From: Bdellovibrio sp.
GTDB taxonomy: Bacteria > Bdellovibrionota > Bacteriovoracia > Bacteriovoracales > Bacteriovoracaceae
Direction of reading: 5' to 3'
DNA: 39,123 nt
Assembly (NCBI GenBank): GCA_020720455.1
Contig: DYOQ01000021.1
Span: 1 to 39,123, forward strand
The position numbers and the translations under genes were made by a program. The stretch's first letter is position 1. The number at the start of each line of letters is the position of its first letter. This document shows positions 103 through 17,151 of the stretch, piece after piece. Below the pieces are notes generated by a model that was not told the origin of the DNA, did not search any database, and was given only the letters and a program-made list of their open reading frames with translations.

Positions 103-120
103 AATCAAATTTTTTTGATT
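103..120. terminator. Weak AT-rich hairpin between convergent genes
   Basis: AATCAAA, a TTTT loop and TTTGATT form a 7-bp inverted repeat, with a run of T at 94-101 on its left. It sits between the convergent 3' ends of the partial gene at 1-93 and the ketosynthase gene, whose stop codon it overlaps. The stem holds a single G-C pair, so it would be a weak terminator at best. Confidence 0.3.
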
Positions 121-1394
121 ATGATAGAACTATTTACACCGCCAAAGGCAAAATTATTTGTCATTCCAATATTAAGGTTGCGCGTTCGATTTTCACCTCT
201 TACGACATCAATTGCATCTCCGAATGCATGGTTTTCGAGATTAAGGTTGTATGGTACAAGGTTTTCTTCCATACAACTCATTAAAATATTAAATTCTTGA
301 ATGCCAGCAGCAGCAATAGCATGGCCATGTCTTGATTTTGTTGAGCTAATGCTTATGTTCTTTGCGTATTCACCAAAAACATCAATCAGAGATGTCACTT
401 CAACATCATCATTAGACCTAGTTCCTGTTCCGTGTAGATTTATGTAATCAATCTGATCTGCTTTAATCTTTGAGCTTAATAGCGCTGTTTTAACAGCAGT
501 GATCATTCCTGAGCCAGAAGGATCAGGTGCTGTTATACGGTAACCATCTAGTGAATTACCGAAGCCTAAAATTTCGAACTTTGGCTCAAGATTATATTTT
601 TTCAGTGATGATTCATTTGCCAAGATGCAAAGACCAGATGCTTCACCAATCAACGCCCCTTTTCTAGAGATATCTAACGGCCGACAACATTTTGAAGGGT
701 GTTCTGGAGATGTTGACATAATCCCTAATTTTCCGAATGCTAAATATGCAATTAAATTAATTATTGAATCAGTTCCTCCTGCAACAACAGCATCGACTTC
801 GCCCGCTTGAAGGGCCTTGGAGGCATAAATGATTGCTTGGGTGGAGGCTGCGCAAGCTGTTAAAATTGTTCGTTGAAATGCGCCGAGGCTTAACACATCG
901 GCAAGGTAGATTGATGAAATATCTAGTGGGTTTAAAAGTTGATTTATATTTATTTGATTAGCATTTTTTTCTTTTATGGCATTGATATATTTCCACTCGG
1001 GTATTTTGTTAAGATAGTCAACTTCGTTTTTTATACATTCAAACGGTGTAACATCAAGACCAACACCTATGGCCACTCCTTTTTTATCAGAGGGGATGCG
1101 GTCTAATATTTGTTCGATGCGGTTTTTCATAAAAAAATAGTTAGCAACAATCAGTTCTAGCTTACGATCATAGGACATTATTTCTTTTACAAGTTGAGAT
1201 TCTTCACAATAAAATTGACCTATGCTATTGCGAACTTCTGCTGCTCCTGTTTGTTCAATTCCACTTATATCAAATCGGGCTATAAAATCCCCGGCTGACC
1301 GATTGTCTCTTATGGATTTCATAATCTCTTTTTTTCCGATACCTAAAGGAGAACATGTATCATAATCTATAACAAAGACGCGTTCATGTTTCAT
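105..1394 (-). CDS. Beta-ketoacyl-ACP synthase (FabF/KAS-II type, active)
   Basis: This 429-residue thiolase-fold ketosynthase would condense acyl and malonyl units on an acyl carrier protein. All catalytic elements are visible: the nucleophile Cys181 in TACAAST, His321 in HGTGT, Lys353 and His358 in STKSRHGHA, and a C-terminal NFAFGG loop. The length is normal for FabF. It is the last gene of a three-gene operon. Its ATG overlaps the stop of the upstream KS homologue by one base (TAATG), which implies translational coupling and a KS/CLF-like pair. The partner ACP and ketoreductase are probably the ones encoded at 15987-17151. The product is unknown. A housekeeping FabF is less likely because of the degenerate partner and the unusual neighbours. 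Confidence 0.9.
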   Translation of the reverse strand: MKHERVFVIDYDTCSPLGIGKKEIMKSIRDNRSAGDFIARFDISGIEQTGAAEVRNSIGQFYCEESQLVKEIMSYDRKLELIVANYFFMKNRIEQILDRIPSDKKGVAIGVGLDVTPFECIKNEVDYLNKIPEWKYINAIKEKNANQININQLLNPLDISSIYLADVLSLGAFQRTILTACAASTQAIIYASKALQAGEVDAVVAGGTDSIINLIAYLAFGKLGIMSTSPEHPSKCCRPLDISRKGALIGEASGLCILANESSLKKYNLEPKFEILGFGNSLDGYRITAPDPSGSGMITAVKTALLSSKIKADQIDYINLHGTGTRSNDDVEVTSLIDVFGEYAKNISISSTKSRHGHAIAAAGIQEFNILMSCMEENLVPYNLNLENHAFGDAIDVVRGENRTRNLNIGMTNNFAFGGVNSSIIIKKI

Positions 1395-2479
1395 TATAAA
1401 ACCTCTTGTAAAGTTATTAATGATTCACGTCCAAACGGATCTCTGTTTAAGCAATCGACGCTTCTGTGCCCATGCTTAAGAAAATTACATGATAAAGCAA
1501 TGTTTATTATTGGAGATACTGTTCCTGCGCATCCGATATGCGGATATAAACTAAATATTGTTTTGTATTTGTTTTGCAAAGCAGTTTTTTCTGTTTCAAA
1601 ATCAACCTGTCTTAGTCCACCAGAAAAACATGCCATAGACGATTTTGAATAATAATTTTCAAAGATATTTTTTGATTGAGAAGTTACTAATCGAGGCACG
1701 TTTTTTCCAGTTTTAATAAGAGCAATTTCTGCGAGAGGTGTTCTTGAACTTCCTCTCAAGCTCTCCTCTGTTTCTAACAGGATCATTATGGCTGCGTTAG
1801 ACATGCGCCAAGTGTGGTTGCTTTTATGAGAAAAATTATTAAACGTGAGAGCGAAAAATAGGCCAGCACCGTTTGCAGCACCAACGACAGCAATTGAAGA
1901 CGACATGTTTTTTAAGTTGGAAATACCTTCAGCTAGTGCATCTATTGTAGCGTGCGATGTGTTGCCATAAACAGTACTGTCACCTTTAATGCCACTATAC
2001 TGGGAAACAAAACTGCATGCGGAGTTTGTTAATGCGTTTAACACAAAAAGTGGCGGCAATACTCTTTCAACTCTTTTGTGTTTTGTTGCAAGCTCGCTAT
2101 TTATGCTGTTGTCAAAATATGCAGCGCTAATATTATTAATGTTATTTAGATATTGGTCGAGGCATGTGCCATTGCTCATGTACAAAGGGATATTTGCTCT
2201 TTCTTTTGTTTCAATTTTTGCAGAATCAAGAAGTTCTTGGGCACAAATAGTTGCAGCTATAACGTCTTCTCTCATCACTTTAACATCTTTTTGTGATGGA
2301 AAATACTTAGATTGTTCGTCAAGGTCTAGGTGTAGTGTCTGTAGTTGGTTTTGATATTCTAGATCATATAGTGTAGATTTAGCGGTCACAGGTGCTTCTA
2401 TTGAGTTAAGTTTTATTAAACTGCTAATACCTGGCAATCGAAAATTTATACCTGTAATAAAAATTTTTGGGGCGCTCAT
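1394..2479 (-). CDS. Degenerate ketosynthase, chain-length-factor-like
   Basis: This 361-residue protein follows the ketosynthase fold but lacks the catalytic set. Around residues 168-180 the segment TVYGNTSHATIDAL aligns with the nucleophile elbow, and Gly172 falls where Cys should be. The HGTGT histidine motif is absent, and the C-terminal LYPHIGCAGTVSPI replaces the usual GHxxGAAG loop. Such KS-beta proteins pair with an active KS and shape chain length in type II polyketide and aryl-polyene systems. It overlaps the dehydratase gene by 4 bases (ATGA) and the active KS by 1 base. By inference it forms a heterodimer with the product of 105-1394. It could instead be a decarboxylase-like priming subunit. 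Confidence 0.75.
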   Translation of the reverse strand: MSAPKIFITGINFRLPGISSLIKLNSIEAPVTAKSTLYDLEYQNQLQTLHLDLDEQSKYFPSQKDVKVMREDVIAATICAQELLDSAKIETKERANIPLYMSNGTCLDQYLNNINNISAAYFDNSINSELATKHKRVERVLPPLFVLNALTNSACSFVSQYSGIKGDSTVYGNTSHATIDALAEGISNLKNMSSSIAVVGAANGAGLFFALTFNNFSHKSNHTWRMSNAAIMILLETEESLRGSSRTPLAEIALIKTGKNVPRLVTSQSKNIFENYYSKSSMACFSGGLRQVDFETEKTALQNKYKTIFSLYPHIGCAGTVSPIINIALSCNFLKHGHRSVDCLNRDPFGRESLITLQEVL

Positions 2480-2970: not shown

Positions 2971-3093
2971 GGCGATCTCCTAAAAACAGTTACAAGTTAG
3001 ATTGCTTTAATAAATTAATTAAATCAAGAAAATTCCTTGACTAGAAAATTGAGAATGAGACAATCAGCTAGTTTTTATCAATAGGTTATAATA

Positions 3094-4212
3094 ATGTTTA
3101 AAAAATCACCAATAACAGAAATGCTTAAAACACACATCAGTATTGATGGAGCAGATCCTTCCGTTGTTCCAATTTTTCAAAACTCAGCGTTTGAAAGTAC
3201 AAGCCCATATTTCTATACCAGAAAAGCTAATCCGAACTCTTCGGAGTTTGAAAGCGCGATGATGGCGTTAGAAGGAGCAACGAATGCTGTTTCGGTGACG
3301 ACTGGAATGACTGCGATCAATCTTGTTTTGAACGAAATTAAGGTAGGTCAACATTTAGTCATTAATAAAGATATTTATGGATGTTCATATAAACTTTTTC
3401 AAAGAGTTGCTAAGAAGTTAAATCTTGATCTTACCGTTCTTGACTTATCGAAAGAAGAAGAGATTAGTCAGATACCAATTGGGTGTAGTATGATTGTTTT
3501 TGAAACACCTACAAACCCATTTCTGAAAACTATAGATATAAAAAAAGTCTCTTTAAAAGCAAAACAACAAAACCCAGACTGTCTTATCGTTGTGGATAAT
3601 ACCTGGGCGACTCCTTTGTTTCAGCGGCCACTAGATTTTGGAGCAGATGTTTCTCTGTATAGTGCAACAAAGTATTTTTCTGGCCATAGCGATGTAATGG
3701 GAGGGGTTATTTTAACTAACAATGACTTGCTTGCGGAAAACTTGAGGCAAGAGCGTTTTTATTCTGGAGCGATTCTCTCTCCGTTTTCAGCTTGGCTACT
3801 AAGAAGATCACTACAAACTCTTCCTCTGCGAATGGCAGCACATTACAGCGTTACGGTTGAACTATGTAATTTTTTGAAAGAGAGTAAACTGATTAAAAAG
3901 ATCTATTATCCAGACATAGACGGCAAGCAGCTCACTTCTTATGGCGGAATAATATTTTTTGAATTTAGTGACGACCTAGAAGATCCCTATGTAAAATTTC
4001 GTGATGGGCTAAATGTGTTCGGAACTGGAACAGGTATGGCCTGCGTAACGTCTATGGTTGCTCAGCCGTATAGTGGGAGTCATGCATCAATGTCAGAGAA
4101 AGAAAAAGAAGAAATGCGGGTGCATAAGAAATTAGTTAGGCTCTGCTTTGGCTTTGAAGATGTTGAAGACCTTAAGAGGGATCTGTCTTTGGCGCTTGCA
4201 AGTTTGGCTTAG
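3094..4212 (+). CDS. PLP-dependent Cys/Met metabolism enzyme (cystathionine gamma-synthase/lyase type)
   Basis: This 372-residue fold-type I PLP enzyme of the Cys/Met metabolism family acts on sulfur amino acids or their activated homoserine precursors. The PLP lysine is Lys193 in SATKYFSGHSD. Upstream are FETPTNPFLK (about 136-145), which holds the phosphate- and substrate-binding region, and VVDNTWATPLFQ, with the Asp that contacts the PLP ring nitrogen. The length is slightly below the usual 380-400. It cannot be assigned to synthase, beta- or gamma-lyase by eye. It is transcribed away from the dehydratase operon, and its last 41 bases overlap the 3' end of the B12 radical SAM gene on the other strand. 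It may supply sulfur, methionine or an amino-acid unit to neighbouring enzymes. Confidence 0.85.
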   Translation: MFKKSPITEMLKTHISIDGADPSVVPIFQNSAFESTSPYFYTRKANPNSSEFESAMMALEGATNAVSVTTGMTAINLVLNEIKVGQHLVINKDIYGCSYKLFQRVAKKLNLDLTVLDLSKEEEISQIPIGCSMIVFETPTNPFLKTIDIKKVSLKAKQQNPDCLIVVDNTWATPLFQRPLDFGADVSLYSATKYFSGHSDVMGGVILTNNDLLAENLRQERFYSGAILSPFSAWLLRRSLQTLPLRMAAHYSVTVELCNFLKESKLIKKIYYPDIDGKQLTSYGGIIFFEFSDDLEDPYVKFRDGLNVFGTGTGMACVTSMVAQPYSGSHASMSEKEKEEMRVHKKLVRLCFGFEDVEDLKRDLSLALASLA

Positions 4213-6019
4213 AAAAAATTGTCTTTAGATTCTTAAAAGAAGAAAGACTGAACAAATTAATTGCTACTATTAGTGCTTCAATCAGCGTCTGATTAAGATA
4301 TGATTCAGAGGCTAATCTCTTTGCCAATAGCTTTAGAGGCACAATAAATACGATGCTATTTTTTTGCTCGATTCGGTTGCCGGTTGCTGCATAGGCATCA
4401 GTTAGCTCATGTTTATTAAATATGACAATAAATGTTGCAAGACTAGTTTCTTTATCATTTATTCTGATCTCAAGAGATTTACTTTTAAAAATTTTCTTTA
4501 TGAAGTTTAGTCCTAAAAAATTTAATATCTCAATTAATTGTTCTTTAAATTCCATTTCCTCTTTCTCAAACTTATTAATGTACAGCTTGAAATAATCGTT
4601 AACCATTTTTTCATAACAGTTTTGATAAATTTTATCTTCCAATAAACAGCCAAAAATTACTTTCTCCACTCTTTTTAAGAACAAAATAATTTTAATTCTC
4701 GAGATAGAAGTTCTTTTGTATAAAGCAAGAGGGATGCCAAGTTGCATAAAGAATTTTTTAGGAGATAGAAAATCAAGCCAAATTTTAATGCGTAATACAC
4801 GCAAATCTTCTTCAGTAGCATCTGGGTGTTTAACAAGAAGTCTTGCCTCGGTGAAATCGCTCCATGGTCTGTCTAAAAGCATGTTTTTTTCTTTCATTTC
4901 TTCTCGATAGCTGGTGCCTGGGTATGGTTGAGCATACAGAGGCTCAATATAACTCGCTCCAAGAAACCGAGCATGTTCACCTATTTTGGAAATAGTTTCT
5001 AGGCTATCAAATGGATCCCCAAAAACAAAAGAGTTGCCGATGTGAATAATACCAGCATCCCTAAACTCTTTATTGACGTTTTTAATAAAACAACTATCAC
5101 TAGGATGGCCCTTTTTATATCTTATTAACTGAGCTTGATCTGGTGATTCTGCTCCATAGGAAATGGCCAAGAAACCTGCTTTTGCCATTTTTTGCTTTAG
5201 TTCAATTCGTCCTAGGAATGGTCGGATAAAAGCAAAAAATATAATTTGAAATTGTTCATTTATAATAAGGTCGCAGATTTTTTCAAGACGATCAAGATCT
5301 CCCCCTAGATGATCATCTGTAAGCCAACAAAATTTCACTTCTCTAGTCGCGATGGTCCGTAGCTCACGTAATACATATTCAGGAGAGTGTAGTCGATAAC
5401 AAGATGGGTACGTAGATGCTGGTGAACAAAAGGTGCATATATGTGTGCATCCGCGTGAAGTTTCAAGAAGATCTATTTTGAAGAGTGGCTTAATTCCGTA
5501 GTAGTAATTTTTATTTCTTAAGTGCCTAGCTGGGGGTAAAATAACATCTAAATTTTTGTTTGGGTTTTTAAGAGGAGAACAATATGTTTTTCCATCAATG
5601 CGATAACAAAGTCCTGATATATCCTCTAGGTTTTTTCCCAATACGTATTCTCTGAAACTTAATTCACCATCCCCTCTTATTACGTAGTCACAGTGATCAA
5701 GGGCCTCTTCGTAACAATGTGTAGCATGCAATCCGCCCATTATTATTTTTGTAGTTGGAAAATTTTGTCGCAAAGTATCTGCGACATCATAGTTAGAGAG
5801 AGCATGCATTGTTGTTTTTACATTTATGCCGATTATGTCTGGGGAAAGCTTTTTAAGTGCTGATATAATGTTAGTTTCAAATCGTAGATCAAAAACTTTA
5901 ACGTTGGCAATGTCCTCAACGTGTGCAGCTATTCGTTCTAATCCAAGAGGTGGTAAAATAAAATTGTAGAAAGAGTTTGGTAATATTTGTGTTGGATAAA
6001 TTAATGCAATTTTTTTCAT
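4172..6019 (-). CDS. B12-binding radical SAM enzyme
   Basis: This protein has 615 residues from the chosen start. An N-terminal cobalamin-binding Rossmann domain spans about 1-130, with PPLGLERIA, DIIGINVKTT and IIMGGLHAT typical of this class. The radical SAM cluster motif CxxxCxxC follows at Cys191, Cys195 and Cys198, inside a TIM barrel to about 430. A C-terminal region of about 180 residues has no domain I recognise. Members of this family methylate unactivated carbons, rearrange rings or modify lipids and natural products. The start at 6019 is preferred because AGAAGG lies just upstream. A longer reading to 6205 adds a hydrophobic, non-conserved stretch and collides with the divergent gene. 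The substrate is unknown, but the location between FAS/PKS-type genes suggests an acyl chain. Confidence 0.85.
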   Translation of the reverse strand: MKKIALIYPTQILPNSFYNFILPPLGLERIAAHVEDIANVKVFDLRFETNIISALKKLSPDIIGINVKTTMHALSNYDVADTLRQNFPTTKIIMGGLHATHCYEEALDHCDYVIRGDGELSFREYVLGKNLEDISGLCYRIDGKTYCSPLKNPNKNLDVILPPARHLRNKNYYYGIKPLFKIDLLETSRGCTHICTFCSPASTYPSCYRLHSPEYVLRELRTIATREVKFCWLTDDHLGGDLDRLEKICDLIINEQFQIIFFAFIRPFLGRIELKQKMAKAGFLAISYGAESPDQAQLIRYKKGHPSDSCFIKNVNKEFRDAGIIHIGNSFVFGDPFDSLETISKIGEHARFLGASYIEPLYAQPYPGTSYREEMKEKNMLLDRPWSDFTEARLLVKHPDATEEDLRVLRIKIWLDFLSPKKFFMQLGIPLALYKRTSISRIKIILFLKRVEKVIFGCLLEDKIYQNCYEKMVNDYFKLYINKFEKEEMEFKEQLIEILNFLGLNFIKKIFKSKSLEIRINDKETSLATFIVIFNKHELTDAYAATGNRIEQKNSIVFIVPLKLLAKRLASESYLNQTLIEALIVAINLFSLSSFKNLKTIFSKPNLQAPKTDPS

Positions 6020-6160: not shown

Positions 6161-7255
6161 ATGAGTAACATTTTTACTGATGAAGTTAAAAAACATGATC
6201 TGCACAAAAAATGGAATAATACGAAGAAAGAGGCTTATCTATACCAAAAATTATCAGATAATAAGGTTCAGTGCCAACTGTGCCCAAGAATGTGTAAAAT
6301 TGCTCAGGGCCAAACAGGATTTTGCAAAGTAAGAAAAAACATTAAAGGTACTCTTTATACTCAAAACTATGGGAAAGCTACTCATGTTACTGTTGAAAAG
6401 ATTGAGGCAGAGGCTGTATTTCACTATATGCCGGGATCAAAAATTCTTTCTCTTGGGAATTTTGGCTGTAATTTAGATTGTGATTATTGTCAGAATTGGG
6501 TTTATTCTCAGTTTCAGTATACCCCAGAAAGCTCTATAAAAGAATATTCTTCAGAAAAAGTAATAGAAATAGCATTAGCAGAGAATATTCCGATACTAAG
6601 TTGGACATACAATGATCCAGCTGTTTGGTTTGAATTCGTCATTGATACGGCAAAGAAAGCAAAAAAATATGGAATAAAAAATTTATTCAAATCAGCTTTT
6701 TTTCTTACTCCAGAAGCAGTAAAAATGCTGGTTGAGGTAATTGATGTATTTGCAATTTCAATAAAAGCGATGGATGAAGCATACTATACAAAGTTTACTA
6801 AAGGGTGGCTTGGGCCAGTTCTTGAAAACACTAAAATTATACATGCATCGGGTATTCATTATGAGGTTAGCAACTTGGTTGTAACTGAATTAACAAACAA
6901 TAATGAAAGTTATGATAGAATGATTGATTTTATTTTAAAGGATCTTGCGCCGACAACACCAGTACACTTTACTCGTTTTCATCCAGATTATAAATATACT
7001 TGCGTTGCTCAGACCCCTCTAGAAGATGTAATGAATGCAAGAAAAAGAGCAAAAGATAATGGTATTGTTTATCCATACGTTGGAAATGTGTTTGAGTCTG
7101 ATGGATTAAATACGTATTGTCCAAAATGTAATGAGCTTCTTATTGAACGTTTTGGCCTTAGCACATATATTAAAGAGTCGTTTTCAAAAGAAGATGTCTT
7201 ATGCAATAAATGTGGAACTAAGCTGCCTGTTTATTTATCGAGGGAGATACAATGA
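6161..7255 (+). CDS. Radical SAM enzyme of the AmmeMemoRadiSam / PflA-like type
   Basis: This 364-residue radical SAM protein has three cysteine regions. The N-terminal set is Cys38, Cys41, Cys45 and Cys55 (CQLCPRMC and GFCKVR). The canonical CxxxCxxC is Cys103, Cys107 and Cys110 in FGCNLDCDYCQNW. A C-terminal zinc-ribbon-like pair reads YCPKC ... LCNKCG. This arrangement is typical of the radical SAM member of the three-protein AmmeMemoRadiSam system, whose function is not known. Neither an AMMECR1 nor a Memo-like gene lies in this window. A GGAG sequence sits 8 bases before the ATG. The gene is divergent from the B12 radical SAM gene across a 141-bp gap and overlaps the next small gene by 4 bases. 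Confidence 0.85.
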   Translation: MSNIFTDEVKKHDLHKKWNNTKKEAYLYQKLSDNKVQCQLCPRMCKIAQGQTGFCKVRKNIKGTLYTQNYGKATHVTVEKIEAEAVFHYMPGSKILSLGNFGCNLDCDYCQNWVYSQFQYTPESSIKEYSSEKVIEIALAENIPILSWTYNDPAVWFEFVIDTAKKAKKYGIKNLFKSAFFLTPEAVKMLVEVIDVFAISIKAMDEAYYTKFTKGWLGPVLENTKIIHASGIHYEVSNLVVTELTNNNESYDRMIDFILKDLAPTTPVHFTRFHPDYKYTCVAQTPLEDVMNARKRAKDNGIVYPYVGNVFESDGLNTYCPKCNELLIERFGLSTYIKESFSKEDVLCNKCGTKLPVYLSREIQ

Positions 7256-7545
7256 AGTCGTTTTCCTATACTTGGGATGACAGATATTTTCTTTTGCATC
7301 TTCAAATTAATAAAGAGGAAGGTCAATTGTTAGAGGTTAAAATTGTCCGTAAATTCTGTGATAATACGACAAGAGAAGAAAGTGTAATTGTAAGACCAAG
7401 TGGTGTGGGGCATAGGTTTTTAGTGACGAGAACTCATCCAAATGAGCTTGCGTTTGTCTGTTTTTATCCTTCGATATCAAAACTTGAAGTATATAAGCTT
7501 GATGATAGAGCGTATTATCCGACACACTCTTTTTATGCAGACTAG
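7252..7545 (+). CDS. Small unknown protein translationally coupled to the radical SAM enzyme
   Basis: This 97-residue soluble protein has no family I recognise. The ATG overlaps the stop of the radical SAM gene (ATGA), so the two are translated from one message and probably work together. It is rich in beta-prone, aromatic and charged residues, with no signal peptide, no membrane segment and only two Cys. It could be a substrate-recognition partner or a small peptide-like substrate. Its 3' end converges with the MMPL exporter gene, 5 bases away. Confidence 0.7.
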   Translation: MKSFSYTWDDRYFLLHLQINKEEGQLLEVKIVRKFCDNTTREESVIVRPSGVGHRFLVTRTHPNELAFVCFYPSISKLEVYKLDDRAYYPTHSFYAD

Positions 7546-7550
7546 TTACA

Positions 7551-9740
7551 TTAATCTTCGATGTTTTTAAAAATTTCTTTGAAAATCCAAATATCACCTA
7601 TGTTCATAAGTACGATTCCAGTGGCAACTAACAATCCAAGTGTTTTCATCGATGAGAAATATGAAAATAGAAAAACAATACTTGAGACAAGAGTGATAAC
7701 AGCAATCGAGAGTGCTCCAATTCCTTGTTCGTTTACGGCATGAATCATAGCTGTATCTTTTGCTGCGAAGATGAACTGAATAGCATTATCGCCCGTTAGA
7801 CCTACCAGCACACTTACAAAAACACACGTTATAAAGTTTAGAGGAATTCTAAGGATTACAAAGACTAAAATCATAAGAAGGGGTCCCCATAGACATGATA
7901 TTATAAGAGCAACCATGTTGTGCGCGCTCCATTTTTTTACTTGGAAAAGCAAAAAAACTAAAAGAGCAGATACGAGCAAGATGCTATAAAGGAAGCTTTC
8001 TGTTAATACTCTGGGGATTTTCATTGCTATATCGGAAAAAGCAATTATTTCACCAGTTGCATAACATCGAGTTCCATCGTTGCACCATCTTTCAATATCT
8101 TTTACAAGAGTATCAAAAATTTCTACTTTGTTTGCCTTAACAAAAACTACTGCATGAAGTTTTTTATCTGATGAGACATATCGTTTGTACTCTGGCACAA
8201 GGGAGTACTCGGTTAAGACTAATTTTTTTGAAAGTTGAGGCAGATCATTAACATAAAAATCTTCAATGTCGTAAGGGGAATGGATACGACTAACAACAGA
8301 ATGTTTTGCAATGTTTTTTAAAACGTTTTTATTAAAAGCTTCTTGTTCTTTATCTTCAAAAATTATATCAAATGAAGCTTGCCACCCCATTCCTTGTTCT
8401 AGTTTATGAAGTCCAATTCGAAAAGGGTGATCACTTGGAAAGATTTCGAAAGGTGAATCGGCGATTTTTAGTTGCCATAGTGAAAAAAAGCCCAAAACAC
8501 TAATGAGTAGGAAAATTTTTATTAAATTTTTAGGTAAACGCTTTTTTAGTAGTTTTATTGAGAGTCGTGTAAACCATTTGACATTGTTGTTTGTCCAGTA
8601 TGAAAAAAAAGAAAACTGTTTTATAAATGCTGGTAAAAAGAAAAAAACCAACATCCATTCGACAAAGCTCCCGGCCGCTGCCCAAAGTCCAAATCTTTTA
8701 ATTATGGTTAAATCAGTAAAACAAAGTGAACCAAAGCCAAGAATGGTAGTTAATGATGTCAAAAAACAAGGAGTAATAAATTTTTTAAAAATATTTGTAA
8801 CGGTATCTTCATGGTGGTTCATTTTCCATGTTGTTAGAAAGACAAAGTCTTCAATTACAGAAATTGTTAAAATAAGGAATAGACCTACGCTTAGTGAATC
8901 GATGGGCGTTTCTGTAGCGGCCATGCCACCGTAAATAATTATTCCCATGATTGTTAATGTTAATACTAGTAAAAATCCTGATCGATAGGTTCCAAAAAAA
9001 ATTTTTGATATAAAGATTAGTATAATGCTAATTAGAACGTTAAGTATTTGAGTTTGGTTTACACCTTGGAGGCCATAGAAAAATTGTCCCATGTGTCCGA
9101 TGAAGTGAACATTGGTCTGTGTGAAATTATTTTTGGTGAATGTGGTTAAGTTATTTTTAAACCCATGTAATATGTTAGGGTTAAAATCACCATACGGAGT
9201 GCCGCCAATAGTATCATAAAATAAAATTTCTACTCCAAACTTTGTATTTGTCTCATCTACAAACAGTTTATGCCAAGGTGTATTGATTAATTTTGCGAAC
9301 TCATTGCGAATGTTAATAGGTTTATTTTCGCAAGGATCATTTATTAAGAGAGGATACGTTATTTTATCAATGCTCCTGTCAACTCGTCGAAGAAGGAGCG
9401 GTGTACGAATAACACTAATTTCGTGGTTGTTATGTACTTCATTTCTAAGCCACTTGTTGATTAAACATATCTGCTTTGATTCAAAAGGAGTTTCTTGCTC
9501 AAACAACAGATAGAGAGAATTTCTTATTGGAAAATCATTTGAAGTTTTTTCAAGACGCTCATATGTGATAGAGTTTTTTTCTAATAACCGTTCTGTTGTA
9601 ATATGAAATTGAAGATTTGGAATGAAAAAAAGTGATGTTGTAAATAGCAGTCCAAAAAACAGCAGCACTACTTTATGGTGATGGTGTGCCAAGTTAAATA
9701 TTTTGATTAATAGATTGTCAAATTTATCAAGAATACTCAT
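7551..9740 (-). CDS. MMPL/RND-superfamily exporter
   Basis: This 729-residue polytopic inner-membrane protein has the RND half-repeat twice: a TM helix near residues 24-45, a large periplasmic loop, a cluster of about five TM helices, then a second periplasmic loop and a second cluster. The pattern fits the 12-TM MMPL and predicted RND exporters that move lipids or polyenes out of the cytoplasmic membrane. At about 730 residues it is shorter than AcrB-type pumps (about 1040). In aryl-polyene clusters a similar exporter accompanies the KS, CLF and DH genes, so export of the locally made lipid is the natural inference. A long hairpin lies 8 bases upstream of the ATG, and I see no Shine-Dalgarno sequence between them. 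Confidence 0.85.
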   Translation of the reverse strand: MSILDKFDNLLIKIFNLAHHHHKVVLLFFGLLFTTSLFFIPNLQFHITTERLLEKNSITYERLEKTSNDFPIRNSLYLLFEQETPFESKQICLINKWLRNEVHNNHEISVIRTPLLLRRVDRSIDKITYPLLINDPCENKPINIRNEFAKLINTPWHKLFVDETNTKFGVEILFYDTIGGTPYGDFNPNILHGFKNNLTTFTKNNFTQTNVHFIGHMGQFFYGLQGVNQTQILNVLISIILIFISKIFFGTYRSGFLLVLTLTIMGIIIYGGMAATETPIDSLSVGLFLILTISVIEDFVFLTTWKMNHHEDTVTNIFKKFITPCFLTSLTTILGFGSLCFTDLTIIKRFGLWAAAGSFVEWMLVFFFLPAFIKQFSFFSYWTNNNVKWFTRLSIKLLKKRLPKNLIKIFLLISVLGFFSLWQLKIADSPFEIFPSDHPFRIGLHKLEQGMGWQASFDIIFEDKEQEAFNKNVLKNIAKHSVVSRIHSPYDIEDFYVNDLPQLSKKLVLTEYSLVPEYKRYVSSDKKLHAVVFVKANKVEIFDTLVKDIERWCNDGTRCYATGEIIAFSDIAMKIPRVLTESFLYSILLVSALLVFLLFQVKKWSAHNMVALIISCLWGPLLMILVFVILRIPLNFITCVFVSVLVGLTGDNAIQFIFAAKDTAMIHAVNEQGIGALSIAVITLVSSIVFLFSYFSSMKTLGLLVATGIVLMNIGDIWIFKEIFKNIED

Positions 9741-9748
9741 GTTTGAAA

Positions 9749-9779: not shown

Positions 9780-9785
9780 GAACAA

Positions 9786-11294
9786 TTAATTTGTAAATGG
9801 TAGAATGGTAACTTGATTACCATTCCATGCTTCTGAGAAAATTCGCGTTGCGACTTTTACATCCTTTCCTGATTTTAACTCAGGAAAAACAGTTTTAAAT
9901 GAAATTAGGTTCCAGTCGGTTGCTTGGCCGTAATGATAATTACGGTAGCTAATTTTATTTAACTCAGTATCTTTTGATTTTAGTTTAGTATCTATCATCT
10001 TGTTTTTCAGATCAAAACTTGTTGGTAAAAGAGACTTTAAGTCTTTTGGAGGATTAGTGAAAAAACTAGGCAAATCAACAATGATTGTTTCGCCTGTTAT
10101 GGCACTTCTAATCTGTGTTTTCTCTCTTAATAAATTTTCGGCCATTGTAAGATTTACTTCGATGTTGCTTTCCCATGGAATAATTTTTGAAGAGTTAATC
10201 ATCGCATACTCATGTGCAGGGCGATTCTTAGTCTCTTCCCACACTATCCGTATATAATTCATTCCTTGACGAAGGTGAACAAGAGCTCTCTCTGTCCAAG
10301 CTACTCCGTTGTCACGAAGAGTGAAAAGAGATGAAAAATTGTCTGATTTAAGAAGTTTGACACGCTCGAAATCGTTAGCACCATCAACTTTTCCTAATTT
10401 GAAACCATCAAGGCCAATCAACAGCCCCTCATCTTTTATCAAAGAAGTAATACCATCAAGATTATATGCACATGCATAACTTAAGCTTGCTAAACCAGTG
10501 TGAATAGAGCTTATTGTTGCTAGTCGATCAACATCAGCTAATATTTTATATCTATTTAGCCCGTCAACGAATGACGTAGTTCCATAAACAACTTTGTTGT
10601 CCCACAAAACCGTTTCTTTACCTATTTCTAGTTTCTGGAGACGAGCAAGTGATTTTGCTGCGCTTGGATAGACCTCTGTTGCTAAATAATTTTGAAAAAC
10701 TGAAGCCGTTTCAAATTGAGAAGTAACATAGCCTTTTTTAGATGTATATGGCGCTATTATGTAATTTAGCATTGCGCTTGAATGGGCATTTGTAAAATGA
10801 ACAGTATATCGTTCAACAATTGATTGGACAGCAACAATTAGTGCACTGTTTGTTATTTTCTCTTTTTTCGCAAGTGTAGTTAAACGATAAACAATTCCTC
10901 GGAATGGTTTTAGTGAAACAAACTGGGCAGCAAAGTAGCGTAAATCTAGAGGAAGAGAGTCGTAATCAGATTCAAGTTTATCAATAATATTATCTATATC
11001 GTCAGCTGATTTAGCGCCAATAATATTATCTCGAACACTTTTAAGCTCAGGGGACATTTGATCTTCACCTAAAAGATTATCTCTAGAGGAGATATTCCTT
11101 CCGCTCCACCGATCTTTTGCATCTTTAATAAAAGCATTAATTTTATTACTTTCGAAAACTTCAAAACTAATAGCAGGTAATTTGAATTCAACACCAGTCT
11201 TGGTGATCGCTTGTGTACCTTTACTTTCGACGTCAGCAAAAGCACCCGGTGTTAAATAGGCTACACTAAATAACAAAATCCACTTTCTTATCAT
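9786..11294 (-). CDS. Secreted protein of unknown function (502 aa)
   Basis: I do not recognise this family. The N-terminus is a clear Sec signal peptide: MIRK, a hydrophobic stretch, and probable cleavage after AFA near residue 20. The mature part is soluble, mixed alpha/beta, low in Cys and without obvious repeats, and there is no lipobox. GGAGG lies 5 bases before the ATG. The gene sits upstream of and on the same strand as the MMPL exporter, separated from it by the 13-bp stem-loop. A periplasmic or outer-membrane-associated partner of the exporter is plausible but unproven. Confidence 0.75.
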   Translation of the reverse strand: MIRKWILLFSVAYLTPGAFADVESKGTQAITKTGVEFKLPAISFEVFESNKINAFIKDAKDRWSGRNISSRDNLLGEDQMSPELKSVRDNIIGAKSADDIDNIIDKLESDYDSLPLDLRYFAAQFVSLKPFRGIVYRLTTLAKKEKITNSALIVAVQSIVERYTVHFTNAHSSAMLNYIIAPYTSKKGYVTSQFETASVFQNYLATEVYPSAAKSLARLQKLEIGKETVLWDNKVVYGTTSFVDGLNRYKILADVDRLATISSIHTGLASLSYACAYNLDGITSLIKDEGLLIGLDGFKLGKVDGANDFERVKLLKSDNFSSLFTLRDNGVAWTERALVHLRQGMNYIRIVWEETKNRPAHEYAMINSSKIIPWESNIEVNLTMAENLLREKTQIRSAITGETIIVDLPSFFTNPPKDLKSLLPTSFDLKNKMIDTKLKSKDTELNKISYRNYHYGQATDWNLISFKTVFPELKSGKDVKVATRIFSEAWNGNQVTILPFTN

Positions 11295-11410
11295 AATTCC
11301 TCCATGATTCTATATCTTTTAACTCTAACCTAAAAATCGATATGAGTAATTAAAAAAAAAGATTATTATTAAATGCTTCAATATTAATTGATTAATTTGG
11401 AATGAAACTT

Positions 11411-13270
11411 ATGATGGAACAGATACTTGTAGATGGTAACGAGGCCGTTGCGTGGGCAGCGTTTGAATCGAATGTAACATTTTTAAGTCACTATCCAGGT
11501 TCGCCAGTAAACAAAATTGCGCCGAAGTTATTTGAACTCTCAAAAAAATTTAACTCAGAAATTAAGTTTAATGATGCGTTAAATGAACATGTTGCTACAC
11601 TTTCTGCTCAAGGAGCAAGCTTGTGTGGGGCAAGGTCTCTTGTGGTTATGAAACATGTTGGTATGAATATAGCTGCTGATCCATTGAACTATCTTGGATT
11701 AACCGGTGTTGTTGGTGGCATGCTTATTGTTGTTGGTACAGATCCTGGGGCCAGTTGCAGTACGGGAGAGGAGGATCCACATTGGTATATTCCTCAATTA
11801 AATTTCCCTGTTTTTGAACCAACGAGCGTCAGAGAAATTTTTGAATTGACAAAAAAATCATACTTGCTTTCTGAAAAATATAAACTTCCATGCCTAATGT
11901 TTATTCCTGCTTCTCTTTGTAATAATCACTCAACCATATCAGTGTCAATGTCAGTGTCTAGAACTGTAGATAAATTGCCCGCGAACATGTTTAAAAAAAA
12001 TTTTAACTTATATGTTAATGTTGGCACAAGAAGTGTGATCAACAATAAAAATCTTTTTGAGAAAATTTGGAAAATCGCGCAGGAGAATATTTGTGCGAAA
12101 TCGTTTTTTAGTAAAAATTCCAAAATTGGAATCATAACAAGAGGGGCGACCTTCGGACATGTTTTTGAAAGTGTTGAGCGACTTGGTTTGTACGATTTAA
12201 TACATCTTCTCAATTATGACTTGGTTTTTCCATTAAACAAAGATGATGTGTTGGATTTTGTAAGCAATAAAGATGAGGTTATTGTCATTGAGGATCAGGG
12301 AGGATTCCTAGAAAATCAAATCAAAAATTTATTGTATAACCATGCAAACGTGAAAATCTATGGAAAAAATTATTTTCCTCCGTACGGAGAGATCTCTTTT
12401 GCGATGGTATATAATTTTCTGCAAAATTATTTTTCTTTTACATGTTCAAAAAATGTAGCAGATTCAAACCTGAAATTCGAGGTGCCTGAGCGTTTGGGAG
12501 TATTTTGTGAAGGTTGTCCACACCGATCATCTTTTTTTATAATAGATAAAGTTCTTAAAGAGCATGCTTCAATAGGCCCAAGTATTATCGGTGGAGATAT
12601 TGGTTGCTCTTCACTCCCTCCACAACGCGCAGACTGGCTATTGTGTATGAATGCTGGAATAGGTATTGCTCAGGGTATTGTTCAGCTTGGCACTGAACAG
12701 CTTGTCATTTCTACTGGTGGAGATGGAAGTTTTTTTCATGGCGGTCTTATTTCTCTTATAAGTGCTGTTCATAATAAATTAAATCTTCTGCATATTGTGC
12801 TTGATAATGAATATATTGCAATGACAGGTCATCAGTTATCACCAACATCGAAAAATTCAACTAAGCACGTGAAACTTCTAAAGGCAGTAGGTGTAGACCA
12901 TGTGTTAACGACGAATGCATTTAGGCCAAAGGACTATGAGCGCAAGTTAGAAAAATTAATCAAGTTTAGTGGTGTTCGGGTTTTATGGGTTAAAGGAAAA
13001 TGTGCAAAGATGCGCTCACGGAAATACAAGGAAGTGAAGAGTTTGGTGCACCCATTTATTAATTATAAAAAGTGTGGCAAATGTACCATTTGCTATTCTG
13101 AGTTGCAGTGTCCTGCAATTGTCAAAAAAACTGGAAATACATTTAGTATTTCATTAGAACAATGTCAAAGGTGTGGAGTGTGTAAAAGCATTTGTCCAAA
13201 TGGCGCAGTATCAAGAAAGATTAATACCAAAGATTTATTTAAAGTGATCTTTTCAAATGGACAACAATAA
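11411..13270 (+). CDS. iorA: Indolepyruvate:ferredoxin oxidoreductase, alpha subunit
   Basis: This large TPP-dependent subunit converts aryl- or branched 2-oxoacids plus CoA to acyl-CoA, reducing ferredoxin. The N-terminal pyrimidine-binding half starts with DGNEAVAWAA and contains HYPGSP. The TPP motif GDGSFFHGG, with a downstream Asn in LDNEY, lies about two thirds along. The C-terminus carries a two-cluster ferredoxin domain: CGKCTIC...CP, then CQRCGVCKSICP. The total length, about 619-622 residues, is normal. Starts at 11402, 11411 and 11414 are possible; 11411 is favoured because GGA lies about 9 bases upstream, whereas it abuts the first ATG. It overlaps iorB by 14 bases. It lies between two minus-strand groups of lipid genes, so it may provide an arylacetyl- or branched-acyl-CoA starter. 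Confidence 0.9.
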   Translation: MMEQILVDGNEAVAWAAFESNVTFLSHYPGSPVNKIAPKLFELSKKFNSEIKFNDALNEHVATLSAQGASLCGARSLVVMKHVGMNIAADPLNYLGLTGVVGGMLIVVGTDPGASCSTGEEDPHWYIPQLNFPVFEPTSVREIFELTKKSYLLSEKYKLPCLMFIPASLCNNHSTISVSMSVSRTVDKLPANMFKKNFNLYVNVGTRSVINNKNLFEKIWKIAQENICAKSFFSKNSKIGIITRGATFGHVFESVERLGLYDLIHLLNYDLVFPLNKDDVLDFVSNKDEVIVIEDQGGFLENQIKNLLYNHANVKIYGKNYFPPYGEISFAMVYNFLQNYFSFTCSKNVADSNLKFEVPERLGVFCEGCPHRSSFFIIDKVLKEHASIGPSIIGGDIGCSSLPPQRADWLLCMNAGIGIAQGIVQLGTEQLVISTGGDGSFFHGGLISLISAVHNKLNLLHIVLDNEYIAMTGHQLSPTSKNSTKHVKLLKAVGVDHVLTTNAFRPKDYERKLEKLIKFSGVRVLWVKGKCAKMRSRKYKEVKSLVHPFINYKKCGKCTICYSELQCPAIVKKTGNTFSISLEQCQRCGVCKSICPNGAVSRKINTKDLFKVIFSNGQQ

Positions 13271-13835
13271 GATGAAAATTAAAAAAAATAATATCAATAT
13301 AATAATTGCTGGCATAGGAGGACAGGGTGTTGGTCATCTCTCGAGGTGCCTGTGGACGCTTGTTGTGAGGAGTGGACATAATGTACATGGTTCTTTTGTA
13401 AAAGGAGGTGCTCAATCCTTGGGATCTATCTATTCAACGATGAGAATTTTTGTTGATAAGAATATCCAGTACGAAAATTATTCACATCAAATTCTTGAAA
13501 ACGACTTAGATCTTTTAATTGCATTAGAGCCATATGAATCTTTGCGGTATAAAAACTTTTTTAATGATGAAACAAAAATAATATGTTCGACTAATATTGT
13601 AAAACCTTGGGTTGGGCCGTTAGAAAATTGTTTGTTTGAAGATCCTGTAGCTGTTCTTTTCTCTTGTGGGAGAGATGTTATCGCAAAAGATTTCCAAGCG
13701 CTGGCCATTCAAAAACACAACAATGTTAAAGCTGCTGGCCTTGAGATGATGATTATTGCTATGGAAAATAATTTTATCCCATATAACGCTAAAGAAATTA
13801 AAGAGATTTACTGGAGTAGCTTAAAGACATTTTGA
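13257..13835 (+). CDS. iorB: Indolepyruvate:ferredoxin oxidoreductase, beta subunit
   Basis: This 192-residue gamma-domain subunit of the 2-oxoacid:ferredoxin oxidoreductase family pairs with IorA. The nucleotide- or CoA-related loop GIGGQGVGHLS (about 17-27) and the KGGAQSLGSIYS segment (about 49-60) are diagnostic, and DLLIALEPYE follows. It begins inside the end of iorA (14-base overlap); an ATG at 13272 is an alternative start. The last 38 bases overlap the 3' end of the enoyl-reductase-like gene on the opposite strand. Confidence 0.9.
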   Translation: MDNNKMKIKKNNINIIIAGIGGQGVGHLSRCLWTLVVRSGHNVHGSFVKGGAQSLGSIYSTMRIFVDKNIQYENYSHQILENDLDLLIALEPYESLRYKNFFNDETKIICSTNIVKPWVGPLENCLFEDPVAVLFSCGRDVIAKDFQALAIQKHNNVKAAGLEMMIIAMENNFIPYNAKEIKEIYWSSLKTF

Positions 13836-14850
13836 AGCGTTTTGTGATGTCTGTGAGCACTCCTGCGTCATGGAGGATTTCAGCTGGTGAAAGCGTTTGC
13901 CCAAATATTGGAGTTTTCCTATTTCTTAAAATATTGATTGCGGAAATTATCAGTTCAGCAGTTATTCCATACATATCTTTCCCAGATAAAGAAACGTGAG
14001 CATTTCTTCCGTTGATACACTTTGCAGCTACGATTAAATTGAAATTTTGTTTTTGTCTTACATCGTCTGTCAAAAAAGGCGTTTGGCCACCGAGAAATCT
14101 GTTTATGACTTTTTCTAATGGTATTTTTTTCTCTTCTGTATTTTTTTCTAGTGCAAACGAAGCCGATGCATCATCGATAAGAATAAAGCTACTAGAGTTT
14201 TTTACTTTGTAATTTTTACTGAAAAACAAAACCTCAGGATATGGAGTAAAAAAAGCGACACCATTATTTTTAATTGTGACATCTGAAAGTACAAAAGGCG
14301 TTGTGATTTTTTTCAATTCGCTATTAATTAAAGCAAATTGATTGAAGTAATTATGAACCTTCATTGTAAATCTTGTTCCTCGAGAGGTGCTTGTAGAATT
14401 AAATTTATAAAAAGAATTTATTGATTCGTACTCGATGGATTTTGGTAAATGTTCGAAAGCCAATAAATCTGCCAGTGCTGATTCAAAAGAACAAGAATGA
14501 ATTATGCATGATTTGTTACTTGTAGTATCGAGAGAACATTTTACAAAACTTTGCTCGCCAGTTAAATCTAAATAATACAGAGAACGATCCCAAATTTCTT
14601 TAAGTAAATTTTGACCATAAATCATATATGGCCCAACACAGTTAACAAGAATATCTGTTTGGTCAAGGAATGAATAGTCAGGATGAGCGCTTAGCAGATC
14701 AAGTTGGAAAATATTTTCAACAAAATTAGAAGCTCTGTACTCTTGTTTATTTCGAATCGCCACAGAGTATGGAATATGTTCTTCATCTAATCTTTTTGTA
14801 ATTATTGTTCCTGTAAAACCATTTGCGCCAAGAATTGTTACTCGACTCAT
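13798..14850 (-). CDS. Trans-acting enoyl-reductase-like / saccharopine dehydrogenase-family protein
   Basis: This 350-residue NAD(P)-binding protein has an N-terminal Rossmann motif, GANGFTG (residues 8-14), and the hallmark NCVGPYMIYGQ ... YLDLTGEQ region (about 69-103). The same pattern occurs in trans-acting enoyl reductases of mycobacterial lipid synthesis and in saccharopine-reductase-like proteins. It is the last gene of the KR-ACP-hexapeptide operon, one base after the preceding stop. In that context reduction of an ACP-bound enoyl or keto intermediate is likely, so the chain need not be fully unsaturated. True saccharopine dehydrogenase activity is unlikely, because no lysine-pathway genes are nearby. 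Confidence 0.7.
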   Translation of the reverse strand: MSRVTILGANGFTGTIITKRLDEEHIPYSVAIRNKQEYRASNFVENIFQLDLLSAHPDYSFLDQTDILVNCVGPYMIYGQNLLKEIWDRSLYYLDLTGEQSFVKCSLDTTSNKSCIIHSCSFESALADLLAFEHLPKSIEYESINSFYKFNSTSTSRGTRFTMKVHNYFNQFALINSELKKITTPFVLSDVTIKNNGVAFFTPYPEVLFFSKNYKVKNSSSFILIDDASASFALEKNTEEKKIPLEKVINRFLGGQTPFLTDDVRQKQNFNLIVAAKCINGRNAHVSLSGKDMYGITAELIISAINILRNRKTPIFGQTLSPAEILHDAGVLTDITKRFKMSLSYSSKSL

Positions 14851-14851
14851 A

Positions 14852-15985
14852 TTATTTTCCGGCGAAATCTTTAATTATAATATTTTGAGGAGGAGGGCAC
14901 TTTAAATTGTTTGGAATAATTCTACCTGGAGCAATAATATTGCCGCCTCCAACTACTGATTCATGACCATAGGCGATGCCCAAAAGTGGTTGTCTTGAAT
15001 TAACCAACCCATTTGTCGTTGGGATAACAATTTCTTTATTGTCTAATCTTATGTCACAATTGATGACGGCCATAACTGCAACGTTTCGGCCGTAAATAGA
15101 AAACTGATATGGGCCGTGTATCAAAAAAACATTTTCGTAAGTCATGCAAAGATTGATTAGGTTTCCTGCAGAAACATAAGTGTTGTTTCCTAAAATTGAA
15201 AACGCAATGACAGTGTTGTCTTCAATTGTGGTTCCATCTCCAACCTTTGTCATTCTTAAAACGCAATGTGCACCAATAGTAATATTATCTCCAAGCTCAA
15301 CGCCTTCGAGAACGGCGGTTGAATGAATGTTGCAACCTTTGCCAATTTTATTAAGACGTCTAAGCGCAAAAGAATATGAGCGCGAACCTATCTTGAAAAA
15401 TGATTTCAAAATTATTGTCGGTACAATTTTTTGTGTTTTGATTGTGCGCCCTAAGTTTAAGGCTAGATTTGCATAAAGTAGATGAAAAGGTGAATCTATC
15501 CTAGTTATCCATGTTTCACACTGATCAATGTTATATTGTCCCGATGGTACAATTTGTTTGGGCAAGCGGATATGGTTCTTAAATATTTGTTGATTAATAA
15601 TGACATTTTTAAAAATTAGATTTTTCTGTTTATAATATTTAAAATTGTAACACCAGTCTGTGCCACCTCCTCCTGCACATGGTAGTAAAAATCTCAAGTT
15701 AAAACTATTTTCTGAGAAAGAGAATTCTAGTGAGGTAGGTGAATTTTTGGACAACCTGATGGCTGCCAGTAAATATTTTTCTGTAAAAATTAAATCATCA
15801 TCAAAAGTAAGGAAATTATCATCGTGAATTTCTTCGACGGATTGCACCTCTTGAAGATTTAACCCAACTTTTTTAATAATTATTTCTTGAAAGAGTTTCA
15901 AGTTAATCCCAAAAATTGGCACATCTCCAATGGCATCACCAAACGAATGTAGGGCCTTGCCTGTCTTGATTCGATAGATGTTCAA
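14852..15985 (-). CDS. Left-handed beta-helix (hexapeptide repeat) protein, putative acyltransferase
   Basis: This 377-residue protein has two parts. The N-terminal half of about 200 residues is of unknown fold and contains a glycine cluster (CAGGGGTDWCYN, about 118-129). From about residue 215 hexapeptide repeats follow (IGKGCNIHSTAV, LGDNITIGAHCV, VGDGTTIEDNTV, LGNNTYVSAGNLI), forming a left-handed beta-helix as in LpxA/LpxD-type acyltransferases and sugar-nucleotide enzymes. The start is TTG at 15985-15983. The ACP gene upstream ends one base before it, so the two are coupled. Use of acyl-ACP as donor is the obvious hypothesis. I cannot identify a catalytic His with certainty, and the N-terminal domain is not that of LpxD. 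Confidence 0.65.
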   Translation of the reverse strand: MNIYRIKTGKALHSFGDAIGDVPIFGINLKLFQEIIIKKVGLNLQEVQSVEEIHDDNFLTFDDDLIFTEKYLLAAIRLSKNSPTSLEFSFSENSFNLRFLLPCAGGGGTDWCYNFKYYKQKNLIFKNVIINQQIFKNHIRLPKQIVPSGQYNIDQCETWITRIDSPFHLLYANLALNLGRTIKTQKIVPTIILKSFFKIGSRSYSFALRRLNKIGKGCNIHSTAVLEGVELGDNITIGAHCVLRMTKVGDGTTIEDNTVIAFSILGNNTYVSAGNLINLCMTYENVFLIHGPYQFSIYGRNVAVMAVINCDIRLDNKEIVIPTTNGLVNSRQPLLGIAYGHESVVGGGNIIAPGRIIPNNLKCPPPQNIIIKDFAGK

Positions 15986-15986
15986 G

Positions 15987-16376
15987 TTAAAGCCTTGTTT
16001 TTTTTATTACAATATTGGTTAGGGTTTGTACGGTAAGTAAATAAGGAATTTTGGACACCGTAAGCCCTGCTTGTATTTTGTGTTCGGGAACTTCTGGCAT
16101 CGCTAAGCGCAGGGCCTTTAACCCTTCTTCAGTAATAACGTTGTTTATAGAAAATGGAACTCCGGCCATTTCATTTTTTGCGAAATTTTCAAATTCACTT
16201 ATTTTTATACTAACATTAAACTCATTTTCAAGAGCATAAAGTAGATCAATTAGATCAATTGAATCAATACACAGATCTTCAACAAGGGTCTTGTCTGGTG
16301 AGATCTCTGATTCATTAATTCTGCAAGATGAGATCAAAGCCTCTTTGACTTTTTTGTATACATGTTCTTTTTCCAT
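15987..16376 (-). CDS. Acyl carrier protein with C-terminal extension
   Basis: Residues 1-80 form a standard ACP four-helix domain with the phosphopantetheine serine at Ser39 in DLCIDSIDLID. At 129 residues it is about 45 longer than typical ACPs; the extra part (about 75-129) includes a GVPFSINNVITEEGL segment and a hydrophobic VQTLTNIVI end. GAGGA precedes the ATG by about 5 bases. It lies 13 bases after the ketoreductase and one base before the hexapeptide protein gene. It is presumably the carrier for the KS/CLF/DH set at 105-2970, which lacks its own ACP. The extension may be a docking element for one of those partners. Confidence 0.85.
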   Translation of the reverse strand: MEKEHVYKKVKEALISSCRINESEISPDKTLVEDLCIDSIDLIDLLYALENEFNVSIKISEFENFAKNEMAGVPFSINNVITEEGLKALRLAMPEVPEHKIQAGLTVSKIPYLLTVQTLTNIVIKKTRL

Positions 16377-16389
16377 AACGTCCTCACTT

Positions 16390-17151
16390 TTATAATCTTA
16401 TTCCACCATCGACAAAAATTTGCGTACCTGTTATAAATGATGCAGTAACATCTGATGCTAGAAACAAGACACTCATTGCTATCTCGCTAGGGGTTGCAAA
16501 TCTTCTCAGTGGAGTATTGTTTAATAATATAACAGAATGTCTATCTTGAAGTGCATTGCTCATTGGTGTTTCAACTACGCCCGGGCAAACAGCATTTACG
16601 CGAATATTTTTTTTCCCGAGCTCTAGGGCCATAACCTCGGTTAGTCGATTAACTGCCGCTTTCATTGATGCATAAACTGAGACCCCTCGACCAAACCGAT
16701 CAGAAACTGCCGATGAAATGTTTACAATATTTCCATTTTTTTGTCTCAGCATGATTTTACCGACCTCTCTACTAAGTTTTGCTAGGGATGAAAAATTAGA
16801 AGAGTAAATGATATCAATATCGTTATCTTCTAGTGCAAGAAATGGTGTTTCAATTGTTGCTCCGGCATTGTTGATAAGAACGTCGATACGGTTCCATTTT
16901 TTTAGCACAACGCCCAGACCTTGTTGTATGGAAGGTGTGGAGTCTATGTCCATCTCTATGGGAATAAAGTTATTAAGTGGTATTTCTGCAAGATTTATCC
17001 AATTAAATAACTTATCTAACTTTGAGAGAGAGTTTCGATAAACTCCAACTACCAGCGCACCTTCTTTTAAGAAGCTTTGTACAATTGCAGATCCAATTCC
17101 GCCATTGCATCCTGTTACTACAACAATCTTATTTTTGAGCTGAAGATCCAA
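16390..17151 (-). CDS. 3-oxoacyl-ACP reductase-like SDR (FabG type)
   Basis: This 253-residue classical short-chain dehydrogenase reduces 3-oxoacyl-ACP with NADPH if it follows FabG. The cofactor loop TGCNGGIG starts at about residue 13, NNAG lies at about 90, and the catalytic triad is Ser in NISSAVS with Tyr and Lys in YASMKAA. The C-terminus GTQIFVDGGIRL is typical. The first codon is TTG (17151-17149). It is the first gene of the KR-ACP-hexapeptide-ER operon and completes the reductive cycle with the dehydratase at 2476-2970. Sequence alone cannot exclude another alcohol/ketone substrate, but the adjacent ACP supports an acyl-ACP one. Confidence 0.85.
   Translation of the reverse strand: MDLQLKNKIVVVTGCNGGIGSAIVQSFLKEGALVVGVYRNSLSKLDKLFNWINLAEIPLNNFIPIEMDIDSTPSIQQGLGVVLKKWNRIDVLINNAGATIETPFLALEDNDIDIIYSSNFSSLAKLSREVGKIMLRQKNGNIVNISSAVSDRFGRGVSVYASMKAAVNRLTEVMALELGKKNIRVNAVCPGVVETPMSNALQDRHSVILLNNTPLRRFATPSEIAMSVLFLASDVTASFITGTQIFVDGGIRL

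Follow-up and report, generated by a model that had tools for sequence, protein, structure and literature searches.

Do the 15 adjoining genes that fill positions 105-17151 of a 39,123-nucleotide stretch of Bdellovibrio sp. DNA (contig DYOQ01000021.1, from an uncultured relative of predatory bacteria; hereafter the window) form one biosynthetic system, and what would such a system make? A first-pass annotation had proposed that two minus-strand operons of this locus act together with the radical S-adenosylmethionine (SAM) enzymes, the pyridoxal phosphate (PLP) enzyme, the IorA/IorB pair and the exporter that lie between them. All genes that it listed were recovered here from the open reading frame (ORF) list and from Pfam and NCBIfam scans of 105-17151, and the joining of these genes into one system is strongly supported by comparison with other genomes. 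The locus is a real, conserved and undescribed cluster, in which elongation machinery of a known kind stands beside a core that matches no described system found, and its probable task is to make an unusual fatty molecule and export it.

The two minus-strand runs are complementary. One holds a 3-hydroxyacyl-acyl carrier protein (ACP) dehydratase (DH), a chain length factor (CLF)-like ketosynthase homologue and a ketosynthase (KS), read from 2970 to 105, and the other a ketoreductase (KR), an ACP, the two-domain left-handed beta-helix protein HEX, which is the marker gene of the system, and a Rossmann oxidoreductase (ER), read from 17151 to 13798. Genes inside the runs overlap or are spaced by 1-45 bases. 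Between the runs lie the PLP gene (plus strand), a B12-binding radical SAM gene (minus), an AmmeMemoRadiSam-type radical SAM gene (AmmeRS) with the small gene orf97 (plus), an MMPL-type exporter gene with a gene for a secreted protein (minus), and IorA-IorB (plus). Contig C7 ends at position 1, only 104 bases past the stop codon of KS; the KS operon may therefore be truncated, with further genes lost behind KS. Promoter and terminator scans returned no more sites than shuffled sequences did.

Among 78 relatives, high-scoring matches to CLF and to HEX occur together in only one, a Bdellovibrionales metagenome-assembled genome (MAG) of another genus (G029, MEQL01), and there the B12 radical SAM, PLP (on the opposite strand), DH, CLF, KS, KR, ACP, HEX and ER genes form a single block, with 47-73% identity to those of the window. 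Compared with this block, the gene order of the window is rearranged. A second locus of the same genome (contig C25) holds IorB-IorA together with counterparts of the secreted protein (41% identity), the MMPL exporter (48%), orf97 (59%) and the AmmeMemo-type radical SAM enzyme (79%). A HEX alignment scan of 85,000 species genomes gave 19 loci, all from MAGs by record title. Those with a KS (type B) comprise the window, G029, a Halobacteriovoraceae locus, Saprospiraceae, Cryomorphaceae, another Bacteroidetes MAG and three further Bacteroidia. The Halobacteriovoraceae locus reads KR-ACP-HEX-MMPL-desaturase-ER on a short contig that cuts off the KS side. Two Bacteroidota genomes (G623 and G648) present an uninterrupted 13-gene operon on one strand, DH-CLF-KS-KR-ACP-HEX-ER-[desaturase+MMPL]-IorA-IorB-AmmeRS-PLP-acyltransferase.

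In Gammaproteobacteria and Aquificaceae, loci without a KS (type A) read IorA-IorB-AmmeRS-PLP-desaturase-LGT-like-HEX, a PF10118 gene being a frequent addition; the order in Brocadiia (Planctomycetota) is AmmeRS-PLP-desaturase-LGT-like-HEX, and two Bdellovibrionota (G145 and G316) have close variants. Riflebacteria G163 carries IorAB, HEX, KR, B12 radical SAM, AmmeRS, orf97, DH and KS genes on one contig, and a Desulfobacteraceae locus (L035) has AmmeRS, then nonribosomal peptide synthetase (NRPS)-like genes, then HEX-IorA-IorB-PLP. Judged by gene content across these loci, HEX, PLP, AmmeRS (with orf97) and IorAB make up a conserved core that occurs with or without a dedicated type II fatty acid synthase.

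Within the family, HEX was found in 3 of 128 other genomes; an AmmeMemo-type radical SAM enzyme of at least 45% identity was found in the same three plus one more (G022), and cluster-type IorA in two of the three HEX-bearing ones (Fisher p of 1e-5 for HEX with the radical SAM enzyme and 4e-4 for HEX with IorA, on genomes that are not independent samples). Relatives have the two halves of the locus either together or not at all, contrary to the separate and independent distribution that the first-pass annotation had named as grounds for refuting its proposal. Because of the G029 block and its second locus, the Bacteroidota operons and the co-occurrence in the family, it is well supported that the 15 genes belong together. 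The cluster is rare, being present in 5 of 369 genomes of the phylum and 4 of 395 of the class of G161, and this rarity, combined with the conserved gene set, suggests that it may have been transferred as a unit.

The KS/CLF pair, DH, KR, ACP and Rossmann oxidoreductase make up, on sequence and comparative grounds, a type II fatty-acid-like elongation unit. KS (105-1394, minus strand) has both the N- and C-terminal ketosynthase domains with an intact Cys-His-His triad, and in the tree it groups with other cluster KSs (100/100), apart from FabF and the second KS of its own genome, which rules out that it is the housekeeping FabF. Riflebacteria G163 has KS genes that do not join this clade, perhaps because of long branches. 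The best PDB matches of KS are FabF proteins (176 bits), with weaker matches to ApeO (6qsp, 114 bits) and to the ishigamide KS (6kxd, 117 bits), a ranking by search score. CLF (1394-2479, minus) has no Pfam match and only a weak match to FabF (E 0.007), but its AlphaFold2 (AF2) model (pLDDT 67, pTM 0.73) matches KS/thiolase folds (E ~1e-14, TM ~0.7), with chains of the AntDE ketosynthase complex at the top. The positions of the catalytic Cys and His are missing in the aligned CLFs and Cys-His-His is kept in their partner KSs. Since the fold match and the lost residues stand beside KSs with an intact triad, the predicted KS/CLF pairing is well supported. DH (2476-2970, minus) is of FabZ type and KR (16390-17151, minus) is a FabG-like short-chain dehydrogenase/reductase, both by family scan, and ACP (15987-16376, minus) carries a DSID site. 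A discrete KS with Cys-His-His, an ACP with its Ser site, a KR and a DH are what a type II fatty acid or polyketide synthase generally contains. The ER gene (13798-14850, minus) had been called enoyl-reductase-like; the family call reaches only as far as a Rossmann fold (saccharopine-dehydrogenase-like), and a trans-acting enoyl reductase is one possible role.

AmmeRS (6161-7255, plus) passes the AmmeMemoRadiSam family TIGR04337 (279 bits, cut-off 220), but it differs from other members of that family by its placement in a separate, cluster-specific clade (100/99) and by an extra C-terminal domain. Most enzymes of this clade have a C-terminal extension that ends in LDRAHFP, and other AmmeRS copies do not. 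In the window, G029, G163 and G022 this domain is encoded by a gene of its own, orf97 (7252-7545, plus, in the window), and in most relatives it is part of the radical SAM protein itself. The Memo and AMMECR1 partners were not found among the window genes scanned. The AmmeRS of G022 has an NRPS neighbourhood from which both HEX and cluster-type IorA are missing, and the radical SAM enzyme alone is therefore not diagnostic of the cluster. That neighbourhood (contig C210; L104:14292-20000 and L105) has a 58% identical AmmeRS and an orf97 homologue beside a giant NRPS-like ORF of more than 3284 aa, as well as a phosphopantetheinyl transferase-like ORF and further radical-SAM-like ORFs, these being read by eye. 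From G022, the AmmeRS/orf97 pair may also serve another carrier-protein pathway.

The PLP enzyme (3094-4212, plus), the cluster partner of AmmeRS, belongs to the Cys/Met metabolism family (E 2e-93). It shares with methionine and cystathionine gamma-lyases the fold family, the YxR motif, the Cys116 equivalent (in an invariant YGC) and the alpha-carboxylate Arg, the last two being present in every aligned cluster member that covers the sites. However, members aligned have Arg-Phe where methionine gamma-lyase has Lys240-Asp241, and the window enzyme is far under every equivalog cut-off. The site pair and the residue roles are those of Pseudomonas putida methionine gamma-lyase. A plain methionine gamma-lyase is ruled out, Cys116 being kept but the Lys-Asp pair not. 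The IorA-like (11402-13270, plus) and IorB-like (13257-13835, plus) subunits of a 2-oxoacid:ferredoxin oxidoreductase had been named outright as IorA and IorB. The naming stood at the level of the domains (thiamine pyrophosphate enzyme, POR and 4Fe-4S) and of the IorA-IorB pair, but not at that of the equivalogs TIGR03336 and TIGR03334, since IorA reaches 413 bits against an IOR_alpha cut-off of 651 and IorB 61 against an IOR_beta cut-off of 206; the placement in a biosynthetic operon also sets the pair apart from canonical IorAB. The B12-binding radical SAM enzyme (4172-6010, minus), with a CX3CX2C motif and a start picked by alignment to G029 (61%) and Riflebacteria (46%), scores 60.4 bits against a TIGR04072 cut-off of 360 and does better with BchE/HpnJ.

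HEX (14852-15985, minus) adjoins the ACP gene and carries the hallmark motif VFLIHGPYQFS. Its AF2 model (pLDDT 88.8) has an alpha/beta N-terminal domain followed by a left-handed beta-helix, the domain that it has in common with LpxA/LpxD-type acyl-ACP transferases. Sequence profiles match the helices of LpxD and GlmU, and Foldseek returned ST0452/GlmU-like two-domain proteins (TM ~0.55), while a nucleotidyltransferase signature was not seen in the N-terminal domain. HEX thus resembles transferases of the LpxD/LpxA/GlmU type and is probably an acyl(-ACP) transferase. Export would fall to the MMPL/HAE3-type resistance-nodulation-division (RND) protein (7551-9740, minus), whose MMPL match is just under cut-off and whose sterol-sensing domain is over it, and to the 502 aa secreted protein (9786-11294, minus), which has no family match and whose ~41% counterpart adjoins the MMPL gene in G029. 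In the two Bacteroidota operons a single ORF fuses a fatty-acid-desaturase-like part with an MMPL part (L128:14808-17510, 900 aa; L130:14046-16772, 908 aa), and an LGT homologue lies inside the biosynthetic operon of the KS-free clusters at L037-L048, L132 and L040.

The interpretation that we favour, with a probability of about one half, is a single dedicated system for the biosynthesis and export of an acyl product, either a lipid or polyketide-like. From an amino acid substituted at the gamma or beta position, the PLP enzyme would release a 2-oxoacid, and IorAB would decarboxylate this acid oxidatively to an acyl-CoA and reduced ferredoxin, the latter driving the radical SAM enzymes. The acyl unit so formed would start, or be joined to, a chain built on ACP by KS/CLF-DH-KR-ER and be modified by the radical SAM enzymes, HEX would take the acyl group off ACP and pass it to an acceptor, and the MMPL pump and the secreted protein would deliver the product to the outer envelope. 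Relatives that lack the KS would draw their chain from housekeeping fatty acids, with the desaturase and the LGT-like transferase. Several points weigh against this interpretation. Its substrates and product are deduced from sequence. The PLP enzyme has Arg-Phe in place of the Lys240-Asp241 pair, and the release of a 2-oxoacid by it, like the transfer step by HEX, is a prediction. The MMPL protein of the window is only ~20-26% similar to those of Bacteroidota and G095, which leaves orthology unsure, and in G405 the set is present but IorAB is missing at that site. Moreover, in KS-free clusters the IorAB, PLP and radical SAM core cannot supply a starter to a cluster-encoded KS, so that the core may make a head group instead. 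In such an arrangement the core of IorAB, radical SAM enzymes, PLP and HEX would synthesize a head group or acceptor derived from an amino acid and attach it, and KS/CLF would supply only the acyl chain; the core would be the constant part and the acyl supply interchangeable. In its favour, the core occurs with KS/CLF in the window and in Bacteroidota, without KS but with a desaturase and LGT-like gene elsewhere, and with NRPS-like genes in L035. Enzymes of the Cys/Met PLP family use amino acids and HEX has an acyltransferase fold, which also fits, but known IorAB enzymes yield acyl-CoA and no head group, and HEX (with AT3 in some loci) is the sole head-group transferase seen; we consider this arrangement possible, at well under even odds.

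The dedicated acyl pathway was also weighed against known cluster types and against coincidence. The first-pass annotation had seen aryl-polyene logic in the locus, and a cluster for a polyene pigment, either a divergent aryl polyene one or one with some other highly reducing type II polyketide synthase, would account for the KS and chain length factor, KR, DH, ACP, RND/MMPL exporter and envelope lipid logic that the locus shares with such clusters (PMC8253772). Aryl polyene clusters, though, also contain ApeH and LolA/LolB-like genes and have their KS, DH and ACP functions in duplicate (PMC8253772). Family scans of the 15 window genes found no AMP-ligase, such as the ApeH-type acyl-ACP synthetase that loads 4-hydroxybenzoate, no LolA/LolB-like carrier (both as had been remarked before), no thioesterase and no second DH, KS or ACP, and none of the 13 genes of the G623 and G648 operons is an AMP-ligase by position or similarity. 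Among the window genes, by contrast, are IorAB, the PLP enzyme, HEX, two radical SAM enzymes and an extra reductase of Rossmann type, and the KS scores higher against FabF than against the ApeO and ishigamide enzymes. With its defining genes missing, the assignment is rejected and the explanation is improbable. A link to the ladderane and polyunsaturated hydrocarbon clusters of anammox bacteria and Desulfotalea, also raised earlier, draws on type II fatty acid synthase genes alongside radical SAM enzymes and on divergent KS paralogues (PMC2649909), but those clusters hold phytoene-desaturase-like proteins and other radical SAM enzymes, and the available part of that account does not list IorAB, PLP or HEX. 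Phytoene-desaturase-like amine oxidases, a CoA ligase and a TIGR04072 radical SAM enzyme were not found among the window genes in family scans, and the B12 enzyme is far from its cut-off; with these defining genes missing, the kinship is very unlikely. A chance neighbourhood, in which a fatty acid operon and an IorAB operon happen to lie beside unrelated enzymes, would suit the several strand changes in the window and the distribution of the genes over two contigs in G029, but it is refuted by the conserved operons, the genes being a single operon in Bacteroidota, on one contig in Riflebacteria and co-occurring in the family, and it deserves hardly any credence. Overall, the earlier interpretation is partly supported. 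The first-pass annotation had known of no described cluster with this exact content, and none was found in the open-access literature, which is weak evidence of novelty because most subscription papers lie outside it.

HgcAB-like genes accompany the cluster in three phyla. A SAM methyltransferase gene and an HgcA-HgcB fusion gene adjoin IorAB or AmmeRS in G029 (fusion at L091:8371-9492, C25), G163 (L093:11989-13068, C109) and Desulfobacteraceae L035 (L100:7579-8763), the first two fusions passing NF043039 and the third being recognized by similarity and motif. The motif of mercury methylation is NVWCA(A/G/S)GK (PMC7536318); the fusions have the cap-helix motif NVWCAAG, with the following Lys of mercury methylators missing. 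Fused HgcAB proteins have served as paralog outgroups (PMC7438021). An HgcAB-like gene was not found in the genome of the window. Pairs of MiaB/RimO-like radical SAM methylthiotransferase genes also lie inside the cluster in G029 (L091:10172-11371 and 11968-13389) and G163 (C109:18425-21002), and neither such a pair nor the rSAM400/methylthiotransferase gene of G029 was found in the genome of the window.

We tentatively propose, as something short of an even bet, an undescribed class of clusters defined by the core of IorAB, LDRAHFP-domain radical SAM enzyme, PLP and HEX, spread over about seven phyla and making a new kind of lipid, of the membrane or exported, that contains a unit derived from an amino acid; in some lineages HgcAB-like corrinoid fusions and a methyltransferase would join the core. 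The cluster type recurs across phyla and falls outside the standard class rules for aryl polyenes, ladderanes and type II polyketides, and it would add a new class of lipid or natural product. It would also give a functional context to an orphan subfamily of AmmeMemo-type radical SAM enzymes and to IorAB-like enzymes in biosynthesis. The linkage of HgcAB-like fusion genes in three phyla is a testable lead on the role of the relatives of mercury-methylation proteins, which, if the proposal is true, would gain a native role in lipid or polyketide biosynthesis that can be tested.

Beyond the cluster, a phosphatidylserine decarboxylase gene adjoins KR and is followed by a TetR gene, an outer-membrane efflux protein gene and an RND pump operon (17315-23655); these are ordinary genes that lie outside the cluster in the relatives examined. 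At 23687-25045, 6.5 kb outside the window's cluster, an ORF of 452 aa without a Pfam match has a 33% homologue that adjoins AmmeRS in G029 (C25, 18825-20243).

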